In this document: positions 15,185 through 27,697 of the stretch, piece after piece
Layout of the letters: every line of letters starts with the position of its first letter
Numbering within the stretch: the stretch's first letter is position 1
Source: a virus
Direction: 5' to 3' (one strand)
DNA length: 37,178 bases
IMG/VR virus record: IMGVR_UViG_3300042885_000830
Span: 1 to 37,178 of that record
Translations under genes and position numbers: made by a program
The notes under the pieces: generated by a model
The model's input: the letters and a program-made list of their open reading frames with translations, nothing else
The model's database searches: none
Told to the model about the DNA's origin: nothing

Positions 15185-17005
15185 GTGAACGAGCAACTTC
15201 TTTTGGGCATCATCAAACTCCTTTCGAAAGACAAAATCAGAGAGGGTAAATCAGAGTACATCCATGACATCCGTGAGATTGCGGATGAACTGGAGCCGCA
15301 CTTTGACGAAGACTACCCGAAGAAGTTGCTTCGTGTGCAGCATCCGGGTGAGCAGGATTGGATGAAAATCTACCGGAAGGAACGATGGCAACCAAAAACA
15401 AGAACGGCAACCGGAAGGGTTTATACTACCCTGCAAAAGATTCAGCAAGCGGATGATTTCAAGATCATTTTCAAGAATGACTTTGCCGACATCGGGATAA
15501 GCGAGAGCAACCCGAAAGGATTACCATCGAACTATTGCCTTGAAAATCTGCCAAAGTTTGGTTCAATCGAAACATGGACTTTCTCATTGGGTTTATCCAA
15601 GTACCTGGAGAACCCAAACTCGGTGGTTTTTGTCGGTCCTGATCTGGAATCATGGATTGAAGACCCAACACCAGGCAATGAAATGTTCATCAACTGGGAG
15701 AAACCATACCCTCACGTATTTGAAGAGGATCACATCGTCTACAAGGCTGATGGTGGAATAATTTTCAAACTGGATCAATACGAAAATAAGGACGGTGACA
15801 AGGTCCAACGAAAGTATGACCAATTCCTTGCCATCTCAATGGAAGGTCTGGTTCTGGTTCGTCAGATAAGACCCTACAACGGAAGCGAGGATGTATTCGA
15901 TACGTTCGTTGCACCTTATCCATTCCTTCAATATCCGATCTATTCGCTTGGTTCGGTAATCTGTGAAATTGAAGATGGTCAAATAGTTTATGATTCAATC
16001 CTTACTCCTTGTCTCCCTGCATGGAATGATGCCTTGTTTACCAATGACGATCTTTTGGTTAATAAAGCCCTTCATTCAAATCCAATCTTTTGGCGTTATA
16101 AAAACAGCCCATGCAAGACCTGTAACGGATCAGGCTTGTTATCTGGAAAGGACAATACACAAAGAACTTGCTCAAGCTGTAGCGGAAACGGACTGGGATC
16201 GGAAGGTTCACCATTCGCCACCATCGAAATAAACCTGCAAAAGAAGAACGCAACCAATCCAGATGTCCAATATCCAACTGGCCCACCTGCCGGATATATC
16301 CAACTCGACATTGCAGCCCTTGAAGCCCAAAAGAAGGACATTGATGACGACATATACCGAGGCTTCCAAGCGATTGGAATTGAACTACTAGCAAATGTAC
16401 CTGCATCGCAATCTGGCATCGCTAAACAATACGACCGGAAGGAACTAAACACCTTCTTTTTTCAGGTAGCGGTTCACCTTGGCTATCTGATTGAAGAAAT
16501 ATCCTTTGCCATTTTCCTGCAAAGATACCGGACGGAAATCGAATCAAGGCTCTTGACATTGGATCAGATCGAGGCCAACAAGCCCAAGGTTGTGATACCG
16601 TCAGACTATGATGTGCTAACCACACAAGTCCTGTCTGCTAACCTTTCTGATGCGATTAAAAACCAGTTTGACCCGATCATTACAATGGGCCTGACTGCTC
16701 AGTACACAGAGAAAGTATTTGGTGAAAATAGCTATCAGTTGAAGGTTCTAAAAATCAAGACGGCTCTTGATCCATTGCCGTATATGACCGCAGAAGAGAA
16801 ACTGATTCTCAAGGATTCAATGGGTTGTACCGAACTTGACTACATCACATCGGCTTATCTGAGTTCATTCGTCACGGAGTTGATTGAAGTCAATATGGAT
16901 TGGATTAATGAACCAAGGCCAAAGCAACGAGCCGATGTGAAGGCAATGGCAATGGAGAAACAAAAAGAAATCAAAGCCGGATTGGTTACGTTGATGCCTG
17001 AATAG
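15185..17005 (+). CDS. Portal protein with DnaJ-like zinc motif
   Basis: This 606-residue protein starts at GTG 15185, since no ATG fits nearby. Size, acidic composition, a helical C-terminal third with the long-helix pattern of portals and the position next to a MuF-like gene indicate the portal: the dodecameric ring through which DNA enters the head and to which terminase docks. It carries two CxxCxGxG motifs (C310-KT-C313-NGSG and C329-SS-C332-SGNG), the arrangement of DnaJ-type zinc modules, inserted in the middle of the chain. The insert probably holds one zinc ion and may form an outer loop of the ring. No frame damage is seen. Confidence 0.68.
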   Translation: MNEQLLLGIIKLLSKDKIREGKSEYIHDIREIADELEPHFDEDYPKKLLRVQHPGEQDWMKIYRKERWQPKTRTATGRVYTTLQKIQQADDFKIIFKNDFADIGISESNPKGLPSNYCLENLPKFGSIETWTFSLGLSKYLENPNSVVFVGPDLESWIEDPTPGNEMFINWEKPYPHVFEEDHIVYKADGGIIFKLDQYENKDGDKVQRKYDQFLAISMEGLVLVRQIRPYNGSEDVFDTFVAPYPFLQYPIYSLGSVICEIEDGQIVYDSILTPCLPAWNDALFTNDDLLVNKALHSNPIFWRYKNSPCKTCNGSGLLSGKDNTQRTCSSCSGNGLGSEGSPFATIEINLQKKNATNPDVQYPTGPPAGYIQLDIAALEAQKKDIDDDIYRGFQAIGIELLANVPASQSGIAKQYDRKELNTFFFQVAVHLGYLIEEISFAIFLQRYRTEIESRLLTLDQIEANKPKVVIPSDYDVLTTQVLSANLSDAIKNQFDPIITMGLTAQYTEKVFGENSYQLKVLKIKTALDPLPYMTAEEKLILKDSMGCTELDYITSAYLSSFVTELIEVNMDWINEPRPKQRADVKAMAMEKQKEIKAGLVTLMPE

Positions 17006-17014
17006 ATACGTAAA

Positions 17015-17044
17015 TAAAAAGCCCTACCATTTCTGGTAAGGCTT
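17015..17044 (-). terminator. Intrinsic terminator of the tmRNA
   Basis: On the minus strand AAGCCTTACC (17044-17035) and GGTAGGGCTT (17028-17019) form ten continuous pairs (one G-U) around a six-base loop, followed by TTT. It starts four bases after the tag stop codon, so the hairpin may also be the last helix of the mature coding piece. Confidence 0.8.
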
Positions 17045-17048
17045 CCAA

Positions 17049-17102
17049 CTATGCAGCCGCACGAACCTGTGCAGGGGCGAAGTTTACTTGAATGGTTTTG
17101 CC
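17049..17102 (-). other. tmRNA tag-peptide reading frame
   Basis: From GGC (17102-17100) the frame reads GKTIQVNFAPAQVRAAA and stops at TAG (17051-17049). The Ala-Ala-Ala end fits the C-terminal degradation signal read by ClpXP-type proteases. Resume codon GGC follows ATAAAC, and Gly resume codons are familiar in Bacteroidetes tmRNAs. Starting instead at the overlapping GCA gives only five residues ending in Lys, so the GGC frame is preferred. Confidence 0.7.
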
Positions 17103-17160
17103 GTTTATGGCTTTTGAAGCACTCCCTCAGATTCTATCGCTGTCAATACCAGTCATCCCC

Positions 17161-17273
17161 ATTTTAATAAACCCACATTTCTGTGGGTCAGGCCGTAGGG
17201 ACTACCTACGGGGCTGTTAAGTTTTTGCCGTTCCTATCGGAGTTTAGAACGGCTACCCGGCGAAGGGTATTTG
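17161..17273 (-). other. Transcribed spacer of the permuted tmRNA, four hairpins
   Basis: The segment joining the mature 3' end to the mature 5' end contains four perfect hairpins in a row. They are TACCC/GGGTA (17254-17269), GCCGTTC/GAACGGC (17227-17253), CCGTAGG/CCTACGG (17193-17211) and ACCCACA/TGTGGGT (17171-17188). It should be removed during maturation, with RNase P cutting before G17160. Four hairpins in a row seems elaborate for a discarded spacer. Confidence 0.6.
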
Positions 17274-17318
17274 TGGAGATGGAGGGATTCGAACCCACGT
17301 CCAGACAATAAAGTTACA

Positions 17319-17346
17319 TTCGGTGCAAATGCGCTTCGGTGCAAAT
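17319..17346. repeat. 12-base direct repeat at the tmRNA promoter
   Basis: TTCGGTGCAAAT occurs at 17319-17330 and 17335-17346, separated by GCGC. It covers the -7 box and the start region of the tmRNA transcript. It could be a regulator-binding site or a duplication that moved the promoter. Confidence 0.6.
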
Positions 17347-17374
17347 ATACTATTTTTGTACAATGACCGACAAG
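17342..17374 (-). promoter_or_regulatory. Promoter of the tmRNA
   Basis: On the minus strand CTTG (17374-17371), a 21-base gap and TATATTTG (17349-17342) match the Bacteroidetes promoter with a perfect -7 box. Transcription would start near 17335, about 23 bases before the P2 strand of the acceptor piece. The promoter overlaps the start of the divergent MuF-like gene. Confidence 0.6.
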
Positions 17375-18229
17375 CAACTTGACATAATCAAACGGATTCA
17401 GACTTTACAAGCTGAACTTGAAGAGGGCATGAACTCCCGACTGCCTGAAATATTCAAAGGATTATCCGATCAGGTTATTGAATTGACCAACGATCTTCCA
17501 TTAGACCCAAAGAAAAGGGCCGCAAATATTCGGGCAATCATCGGACTGAAAACACAATTGACAAATGTCATTGTCACCAATCCGGAATACGTCAAAGAAG
17601 TTGGTCGGGTTCTGGATGGCTTTAAAGACCTGAAGAAACTATCTGATCTCTACTTTAGTGAACTGATTGACGGGTTCAATGCGAAAGAGGTGTTGTATCA
17701 GGAAATCCTGAAAGCCAATATCGAGATTACAAAGGATATGCTTCTTGGTTCAGGCATCAGGAATAATTTTGCCAATGCAATACAAGAAACGCTGAAGGCC
17801 AACGCATCAGGAACTACCAACCGGACGTTGCTTCAGAAAACCCTCAAAGAGTTCATAGAAGGCACGGAAGCAGAAAAGGCATACCTGAATCGATACATAA
17901 CAACCGTCACAAATGATTCTGTGATGACCTTTTCCAGACAATATGTAGAAACTATTGCCGAAGACTTAAATCTTCAGTTTTTTTTCTATTCCGGCACGGC
18001 CATTAAAGATACTCGGTCTTTTTGTCGGGCCAGACATGGGCGATACTTCAAAAAGTCCGAAGTTGAAAACTGGGCTAATCTTGGAAACTGGAATGGTCGC
18101 AAAGCAGGAACCACAAAATCAACTATATTTTCCTTCGCTGGTGGCTGGAATTGTAGGCACACAATCTATCCAATAACTCAAACTCAATACAGAGTGGCCG
18201 AGAAAAAAGGTCTTACAGGACTTAAGTAG
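17363..18229 (+). CDS. MuF-like head morphogenesis protein
   Basis: This 288-residue protein starts MTDKQLDIIKRIQTLQ. I chose ATG 17363 because earlier codons overlap the tmRNA promoter. Residues 1-205 are helical. The C-terminal part has the phage Mu gpF-like signature: a conserved Asp-Thr-Arg with nearby Cys (KDTRSFCRARHGRYF, near 221-235), then a Gly-rich turn and WNCRHTIYPI near 265-274. Such proteins sit near the portal and help head assembly, and some are carried into the head. It is divergent from the tmRNA, and its last eight bases overlap the end of the convergent HNH gene. Confidence 0.82.
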   Translation: MTDKQLDIIKRIQTLQAELEEGMNSRLPEIFKGLSDQVIELTNDLPLDPKKRAANIRAIIGLKTQLTNVIVTNPEYVKEVGRVLDGFKDLKKLSDLYFSELIDGFNAKEVLYQEILKANIEITKDMLLGSGIRNNFANAIQETLKANASGTTNRTLLQKTLKEFIEGTEAEKAYLNRYITTVTNDSVMTFSRQYVETIAEDLNLQFFFYSGTAIKDTRSFCRARHGRYFKKSEVENWANLGNWNGRKAGTTKSTIFSFAGGWNCRHTIYPITQTQYRVAEKKGLTGLK

Positions 18230-18857
18230 CTACTTTGTATTTCCACAAATATCCATGTGCTTTTTTGCATCTTCCTTTTAAAACGTGGTTTATGTTGCCT
18301 TGCCTCAAACCAGTTTCTCTTTGAACTTGTCTTTGAGATTCCCAATCTCTTATCCAATTTCCATCTAAATCAAATTGAGATATTGGCGTACTATCTTTTC
18401 TTTCAGAACCTTTTTTTGTTTTTATTAATCCAGTTTTAAATCCATGAATTGTATTTTCTGACCTCGTAACCCATTCTAAATTTTCTACCCTATTATCAAA
18501 TTTAATCCCATTAATATGGTTTATTTCTGGCTTGTTTTCTGGGTTTGGAATAAAATGTGTAGCAACCAGCCTGTGAACTGTCAATTTTTTACTTTTGCTT
18601 AATCCAATAATTAAATAAGCACGATTGGAAGAAGGGACTATTATTTTTTCAGGATAAGGCTTTTTCATTTCACTGCCCCATCTACTAATTTGCTGAATAG
18701 TTCTTTCCTTTGATTTCACCCTTCCAAGATTACTGACCATATAAGAATCTTCAAGACCAACTACATCTTTCCAGATTTCACCGGGCAATGATTCAATTTC
18801 AACTTTGTTTTTTTCTCGTTCAATTCTTCTTAATTCTTTTCTATAATCTACTTTCAT
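18222..18857 (-). CDS. HNH homing endonuclease with NUMOD domains
   Basis: This 211-residue protein has a NUMOD4-type segment near residues 26-50 (EIWKDVVGLEDSYMVSNLGR, then VKS). An HNH core follows near 95-140 (VHRLVATHFI, then EINHINGIKFDNRVENLEWV, with the catalytic His in NHINGIKFDNR). A NUMOD1-type DNA-binding segment lies near 158-208 (ISQFDLDGNWI, then HGYLWKY). This is the layout of free-standing phage homing endonucleases, which cut DNA near their own site and spread by repair. It is convergent with the MuF gene and antisense to its surroundings, consistent with an insertion. Codon use is AT-rich compared with neighbours. Its leader is structured (separate entry). Confidence 0.88.
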   Translation of the reverse strand: MKVDYRKELRRIEREKNKVEIESLPGEIWKDVVGLEDSYMVSNLGRVKSKERTIQQISRWGSEMKKPYPEKIIVPSSNRAYLIIGLSKSKKLTVHRLVATHFIPNPENKPEINHINGIKFDNRVENLEWVTRSENTIHGFKTGLIKTKKGSERKDSTPISQFDLDGNWIRDWESQRQVQRETGLRQGNINHVLKGRCKKAHGYLWKYKVAT

Positions 18858-26557: not shown

Positions 26558-27697
26558 ATGTCTGTTGCATTAAACAATATTAGCCTTGGGGTACTTACCT
26601 CACTGACGGCTAACCTCATAAACAATGCCGAAACGGTCGGGATCAACACCGGAGCGTTGGGAGCATTGAACACTGCCGAAAACCTTGCATCTGGTAAGAT
26701 CATCCGGTTGGCAAACGATGACGGAACAGGACATCAGAAGCAAGTACGGGTTGTTACCAAGCAACGCCAGACTGCTGATGATACCGTTTCCTCAAAAGAT
26801 TGTACTCCTGGTTCTGAACTGTTGTACGAAGAAGAAGTTGTAACCATTACTGACTATGTCGGTGGTAAGTTCCTTTTGAACGAATCAACTGTTCGTCAGT
26901 ACGATTCTTCTTACTCTGAACTTGTACGTTTGACAGGTTCAAAAGACCCTCGTCAGATCGTAATGAAAGCCTCTGAAATGGGGTCAGCTACTACTGAACT
27001 TTCCGTGATCCGTGAGATGTTCAGCGACTTCCAACTGTCAATGGATGCCATGATTCAAGCGGTCAACAAGAAGATTCTTGCCTACGCTGATGCGGCAAAA
27101 GGAACTTGGGTTGGTGGTGCTGCTTCAAAGTCTTATGTTGTTCAGAACGGTTCAACGTATGTGAATGGTGCAGGTAGTATTAACGCAGGTGGATTGATGA
27201 GTTTCCGTCAGGATGCTCGTGCAACCAAGTTCAACGGATTGCCTCACATCATCTCTGGTTACGGTGCAATGGATCGTATCTTCCAACAGGATAGCCGCTA
27301 CTTCGGACCGGGTGCAAATGGTTTCGACTTCGCATCTGTAAGAGGTGCTGCCGGTCAGGAAATGCGTTTGTTCACGGATGAGAACGTAGTGGATCAATTC
27401 TCTTCTGAAGATGCCGCTATCGTCTTTATGCCGGGTTCAATGTTGTACCTTCCGTTCCTTCAGTACGTAGGAAACTTTGGTGACATCGGGGTAATGAAGC
27501 GTTTCACTATGCCAATTCCACAATTGCCAAACGTGAACATTGACGTTCGTATCCTTCCTGATGAGTGTTCTGAGAACTACGCTGTGTTCTTAGATCAATT
27601 CTTCGAAATCTACACTCCATCAATGGAGTTGTTCAAGGCATCTGACCGCCTAACTGGTGTGAATGGTGTATTCGAAGCTGCTTTTACACAGGCGTAA
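26558..27697 (+). CDS. Major capsid protein
   Basis: This 379-residue protein starts MSVALNNISLGVLTSLTANL. It follows the scaffold gene and has HK97-type features: a flexible N-arm, a charged spine-helix region (residues 100-165), a Gly/Ala-rich loop (AKGTWVGGAASKSYV near 180-193) and a beta-rich C-terminal part (MPIPQLPNVNIDVRILPD). Codon use shifts to C/T-ending codons such as CGT, GGT and AAC, as expected for the most expressed late gene. It ends before a strong terminator. A Cys pair (DCTPGS near 82; DECSEN near 335) is notable. Confidence 0.8.
   Translation: MSVALNNISLGVLTSLTANLINNAETVGINTGALGALNTAENLASGKIIRLANDDGTGHQKQVRVVTKQRQTADDTVSSKDCTPGSELLYEEEVVTITDYVGGKFLLNESTVRQYDSSYSELVRLTGSKDPRQIVMKASEMGSATTELSVIREMFSDFQLSMDAMIQAVNKKILAYADAAKGTWVGGAASKSYVVQNGSTYVNGAGSINAGGLMSFRQDARATKFNGLPHIISGYGAMDRIFQQDSRYFGPGANGFDFASVRGAAGQEMRLFTDENVVDQFSSEDAAIVFMPGSMLYLPFLQYVGNFGDIGVMKRFTMPIPQLPNVNIDVRILPDECSENYAVFLDQFFEIYTPSMELFKASDRLTGVNGVFEAAFTQA

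Follow-up and report, generated by a model that had tools for sequence, protein, structure and literature searches.

Does the minus-strand interval behind the portal gene of this phage hold a complete two-piece tmRNA gene, and if so, where might it have come from and what would it do during infection? An earlier note had placed a circularly permuted tmRNA gene at 17010-17335 on the minus strand of the window, the whole 37,178-nucleotide stretch analyzed here, and had proposed a search with Infernal and the Rfam models as a check. When the whole window was searched, 17332-17049 (minus strand) matched Rfam tmRNA_permuted, RF04321, with 47.7 bits (E 1.5e-6), barely above the gathering cut-off of 47 bits; this was the sole gathering-level Rfam match in the 37 kb. 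ARAGORN reported one gene in the window, a permuted tmRNA (tmRNA*) with the tag GKTIQVNFAPAQVRAAA. Because the RF04321 score barely exceeds its cut-off, we built a family covariance model from 34 homologues, with the window excluded, and the window scored 72.4 bits with it (E 4e-12, 245 kb searched), while standard tmRNAs reached at most 38 bits in the same search. RF04321, ARAGORN and the family model thus agree with the note on place and strand. A one-piece reading was rejected, as the match to RF00023 is partial and sub-threshold and the terminator comes after the tag. The parts of the gene are as follows.

17342..17349, minus strand: promoter element of Bacteroidota type, TATATTTG (-7), recognized by sequence
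17274..17335, minus strand: acceptor piece, from the RF04321 alignment and sequence read-out; 5' end predicted
17302..17312, minus strand: 3' strand of proximal P2, TTTATTGTCTG, in duplex with 17142-17133
17298-17282, minus strand: T-arm, part of the acceptor piece
17281-17275, minus strand: acceptor strand CATCTCC, part of the acceptor piece
17274, minus strand: discriminator A17274, with no encoded CCA
17161..17273, minus strand: intervening segment of 113 nt with four predicted hairpins (fold -42.4 kcal/mol)
17012..17160, minus strand: coding piece beginning GGGGATGACTGG, from RF04321 and the family model; 3' end predicted
17133..17142, minus strand: 5' strand of proximal P2, CAGCGATAGA, from the P2 duplex comparison
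17049..17102, minus strand: tag frame GKTIQVNFAPAQVRAAA with stop TAG, from ARAGORN and translation
17012..17045, minus strand: intrinsic terminator, a hairpin (17045-17012, fold -18.4 kcal/mol) with a T run

The acceptor 3' half (17281-17274) lies upstream of the 5' half, which begins at 17160, with 113 nt between them, and the intervening segment is expected to be removed from the RNA. The seven-pair acceptor stem that the note had seen between the halves was recovered (G17160-G17154 with C17281-C17275), and it includes G17158:T17277 as G3.U70, the alanine identity pair. The promoter, tag frame and terminator that it had described were likewise found, and we infer a transcription start near 17335. 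Its P2 helix fared less clearly: CAGCGATAGA pairs with TTTATTG(T)CTG and this is the best partner choice among 35 loci, but 6% of shuffles of the window alone reach it, and over its full length the window's own duplex has an energy no better than that of shuffles. The T-stem has one mismatch, T17297:T17283.

Three further observations were made around these parts. Around the promoter and the beginning of the tmRNA, at 17325-17348 (minus strand), TTTGCACCGAA is present twice, 17 bases apart. A TAnnTTTG is also found at 17351 on the opposite, plus strand, so that the promoter may act in both directions. TTTATT follows the final hairpin of the intervening segment (17161-17190, minus strand) just ahead of the coding piece, an arrangement that resembles a weak terminator and could attenuate transcription.

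The surroundings of the gene were then compared with those in 16 close relatives, whose portal proteins are 90-97% identical.

15185..17005, plus strand: portal protein gene flanking the cassette (PHROG 7376 portal, E 8e-10)
17006..17362, minus strand: the entire cassette, a 357-bp insert that separates the portal stop from the start of the next gene; missing in 15 close relatives
17363..18229, plus strand: other flanking gene, placed like one for a MuF-like head protein; matches nothing in Pfam or PHROG

The antisense position of the tmRNA and its portal neighbor were as the note had described them, while the MuF name that it gave to the other neighbor is unproven, since that gene matches no family. 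Neither ARAGORN nor Rfam found a tmRNA in the 16 close relatives; the portal stop and the next gene start abut or overlap in 15 of them, and the window carries 357 extra bases at exactly this point. A tmRNA was also absent elsewhere in nine of the relatives' records (10 to 42 kb), which may be fragments. Like a moron, the cassette has its own promoter and terminator and is absent from close relatives. Because these lack the gene and the insertion between abutting genes is clean, the cassette looks like a recently gained moron. The sixteenth relative, L017, has a different insert at the same junction (L017:577-1000), a methyltransferase-like frame that is also antisense, and different phages seem to carry different cargo at this place. 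An HNH endonuclease gene (18222-18857, minus strand; PHROG 59, E 6e-49) also lies antisense near the cassette.

Is the arrangement peculiar to this phage? The note knew of none in a phage of Bacteroidetes. In viral contigs, three pattern scans that allowed 29 to 120 nt between the halves gave 38 loci; in 84,980 genomes, a single scan (halves 90-120 nt apart only) gave two, both in Bacteroidota. After removal of duplicates, 36 sequences remained: 33 distinct viral-contig loci, the two Bacteroidota genomes and the window. The window is not the only case: the viral-contig loci, a flavobacterial prophage, crAss-like phages and a Chryseobacterium phage share the arrangement. Acceptor pair 5:68, which was free in the search pattern, is Watson-Crick in all 36 loci (15 G-C, 13 A-T, 6 C-G and 2 T-A), a result reached by 0 of 100000 permutations; the loci are related, and family counts are therefore not independent events. 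Among the 34 homologues, 99.8% of cells are paired and 49 are changed on both sides; the covariation score is 0.311, compared with 0.060 in shuffles and a maximum of 0.083 after sliding. G3.U70 was fixed in the search pattern for loci other than the window. RNAalifold on the joined halves recovered the acceptor and T stems, and P2 was not recovered. Because P2 does not align, cognate and exchanged duplex energies were compared instead: strands from the same locus averaged -15.2 kcal/mol and those from different loci -10.5 kcal/mol (0 of 100000). TAnnTTTG stands upstream in 14 of the 36 loci, where 2.1 would be expected, and its distance is mostly constant. The note had named loss of pairing in related phages as evidence against its reading; the closest phages lack the gene entirely, and in distant homologues the acceptor pairing is preserved, with covariation.

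The homologue nearest to the window by eye, L050 (viral contig IMGVR_UViG_3300046007_011774; tag GKQINVNFAASRKLAA), has the same GCATAGTTGGAAGCC run into the terminator and the same T:T mismatch. It is inserted at another place, however, and in the examined part of the phage it shares one protein only, a metalloprotease 29% identical. These comparisons bear on whether the window holds a functionless copy, decaying or accidental, such as a captured piece of tmRNA or the remnant of an integration site. tmRNA genes are often integration sites of mobile elements (PMC11915505), and the T-stem mismatch could be a sign of decay. Yet the mismatch is common to L050 and so is not fresh decay; nothing is broken in the two halves, the tag, the promoter or the terminator; and the same order of halves, with covariation, recurs in 36 loci. 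The cassette also sits among head genes with no integrase adjoining. The integration-site remnant was rejected given the intact parts, the missing integrase and the recurrence, and we regard a functionless copy of any kind as extremely improbable.

In three phage permuted tmRNAs the intervening segment encloses an intact tRNA-Ala(TGC) (L019:3674-3748, L023:4786-4860 and L047:4462-4536). A tRNA gene in this position is called unique to one archaeal bin in PMC11915505; because of the three phage cases, that bin may hold a phage contig. The permuted tmRNA is preceded by RAGATH RNAs in three crAss-like phages and in one viral contig (L095:78-244, L098:363-464, L102:487-655 and L024:405-593).

The tag frame ends in Ala-Ala or similar in nearly all of the family. 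Tags such as GKTINFSNAPLRAVA, GKVINMFGQPQLRAVA and GKVIQMFAQPVRLAA are common in much of it and differ from sampled one-piece tags (GENNYALAA, GEDNYALAA, ANDYSYAMAA). In a small sample, the final two codons are far more variable at their third positions than at their first, which is what translation of the frame would produce. During infection, the RNA would most likely serve as a phage-chosen tmRNA for trans-translation. Transcription would run from near 17335 to near 17012; host RNase P would cut ahead of G17160, the 3' end would be trimmed after A17274 and CCA then added, and the acceptor stem and P2 would hold the two pieces together. Host alanyl-tRNA synthetase would charge the RNA through G3.U70, and host SmpB and EF-Tu would deliver it to stalled ribosomes, where GKTIQVNFAPAQVRAAA would be appended. 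No SmpB was found encoded in 30 phage records, so that of the host would have to serve. The likely benefit would be ribosomes kept free during infection, together with a tag of the phage's choosing.

The main functional rival is that the RNA acts as a decoy, mainly binding SmpB, alanyl-tRNA synthetase or ribosomes and so dampening host trans-translation instead of carrying it out. Mycobacteriophage DS6A carries a tRNA-like-only RNA, like the RNA of the window a phage-borne relative of tmRNA, but without a tag frame and suspected to be an inhibitor; it sets a precedent, and a similar RNA inhibits tmRNA (PMC4131195, PMC11915505). A phage without SmpB would also suit a decoy. Such an RNA would not need a tag frame, yet nearly all of the family keeps the Ala-Ala or similar end, and we consider a decoy quite unlikely. 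We think it very probable that the cassette is a complete two-piece tmRNA gene, carried as a moron by a Bacteroidota phage, that would work through host factors.

That the window belongs to a Bacteroidota phage is supported by several sequence features. Because searches with the portal among deposited phages and Bacteroidota genomes found no relatives, the host is predicted from promoters, absent Shine-Dalgarno motifs and DnaB. Bacteroidota promoter motifs occur in the window, none of its 34 genes has a Shine-Dalgarno motif, the lack of which is typical of Bacteroidota, and, of the phages deposited so far, Cellulophaga phage phi39:1 has the best match to its DnaB. BLASTN of the tmRNA gene against deposited phages gave no match, nor did the portal or the protein encoded at 26558-27697, and no portal relatives were found in 395 Bacteroidota genomes.

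The genome scan found the permuted gene in Zeaxanthinibacter sp. PT1 and in a Bacteroidales bin. In Zeaxanthinibacter sp. PT1 it lies in a prophage, near a phage-type integrase, RIIA, DNA polymerase, ligase and helicases; this genome also has a standard tmRNA (160 bits), with the tag GEDNYALAA as against GKVIQMNNAPVRLAA in the prophage. Among the 395 Bacteroidota genomes, only Zeaxanthinibacter sp. PT1 had a permuted match above the cut-off. The next-best match with the family model after the prophage scored 52 bits, and the 11 best such matches below the prophage were all one-piece by ARAGORN. The 24 best loci below the cut-off comprised 21 one-piece tmRNAs, two tRNA genes and one without a call. 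Since one of 395 genomes exceeded the cut-off and the lower loci inspected were mostly one-piece, the permuted tmRNA is not a usual chromosomal gene in Bacteroidota.

Phage-borne permuted tmRNAs as such are already known. They were published in 2022 for phage Melnitz and other marine phages, and 53 tmRNAs of deposited phages, 50 of them from marine or aquatic samples, were called two-piece by ARAGORN (PMC9004378). Like that of the window, the Melnitz/pelagiphage RNA is phage-encoded and two-piece and presumably uses host SmpB, but its lineage groups with SAR11 alphaproteobacteria, whereas that of the window has Bacteroidota features (PMC9004378). A 2025 database includes 79 phage tmRNAs, whose form is not stated in its main text (PMC11915505). 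Among deposited phages, permuted tmRNAs were found in the crAss-like phages cr50_1, cr10_1, cr60_1, cr7_1, cr125_1 and cr53_1 and in Chryseobacterium phage MA9V-3, with 54.8-87.5 bits in the family model; those of cr60_1 (40.3 bits) and cr125_1 (46.3 bits) fall below the Rfam cut-off, and ARAGORN calls both tmRNA*. Their records are annotated as SsrA or not at all, and the permuted form is not stated. These Bacteroidota phage genes share the permuted form and family model with the window but have tags of another kind, e.g. GNNFVTDYTQLAVA. We found no paper discussing the permuted form in Bacteroidota phages in a literature search that covered few subscription papers, and this lineage seems undescribed there. 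The gene of cr53_1 is unannotated (L101, NC_055889.1 92563-94015), scores 50.3 bits with RF04321 and is missed by ARAGORN. The deposited tmRNA of Cellulophaga phage Calle_1 was dropped as a candidate after it proved to be one-piece. When the Rfam permuted consensus was used as a query against phages, mostly T-arms of other tmRNAs and tRNAs came up.

Where did the permutation arise? The window shares with RF04321, the two-piece tmRNA of alpha-, beta- and cyanobacterial lineages, the order of halves, the acceptor and T-stem, a tag frame and a score above the cut-off. It differs from the RF04321 members in a Bacteroidia-type tRNA-like domain, in being phage-borne and in its tag. Sampled one-piece Bacteroidia tmRNAs start like GGGGnnGACTGGTTTTGACAGC and have GTTTGGAC ahead of the T-stem; the equivalents in the window are GGGGATGACTGGTATTGACAGC and TGTCTGGAC, and window and family resemble these one-piece genes and are unlike the Rfam permuted consensus, GGGGgTGaAaTGGuUUCGACgg. 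The window reads TGACTGGTATTGACAGC where the alpha, beta and cyanobacterial lineages have a tRNA-like domain of the TGaAaTGG...TTCGACgg type. Because these signatures resemble one-piece Bacteroidia tmRNAs and not the Rfam permuted consensus, the comparison suggests a permutation within Bacteroidia-type tmRNA, separate from the alpha-, beta- and cyanobacterial ones; the search pattern fixed some signature positions (spacer, TTGAC), which weakens the claim of independent origin and leaves the window and the unfixed positions as its evidence. Alternatively, the gene could descend from an alpha-, beta- or cyanobacterial permuted tmRNA and have acquired Bacteroidota features later, a route made conceivable by permuted tmRNAs that travel in phages of other hosts. 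As window and family have the 2-nt spacer before TGG, TTGACAGC and the TTTGGAC of one-piece Bacteroidia tmRNAs, where the Rfam permuted consensus instead reads TGaAaTGG and TTCGACgg, we hold such descent to be unlikely, though a serious contender. We advance only tentatively, at somewhat less than even chances, the broader proposal that Bacteroidota phages have their own tmRNA lineage, permuted independently of the three known ones and absent from host chromosomes bar prophages, and that its conserved family of tags (GK[TV]I..F...LRAVA) would redirect host protein tagging during infection.

Such a lineage would add a phage-borne branch to the known permuted tmRNAs and would show that it is common, in a main phylum of the gut and the sea, for phages to come with a ribosome-rescue RNA of their own. 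The role of phage tmRNAs becomes testable because cultured carriers exist, in the lysogen Zeaxanthinibacter sp. PT1 and in MA9V-3 with its cultured host, and differing host and phage tags can be distinguished by mass spectrometry. About 27 kb from the permuted tmRNA of Zeaxanthinibacter sp. PT1, and perhaps in the same prophage, lies an open frame of 5143 codons (L118:3433-18864).
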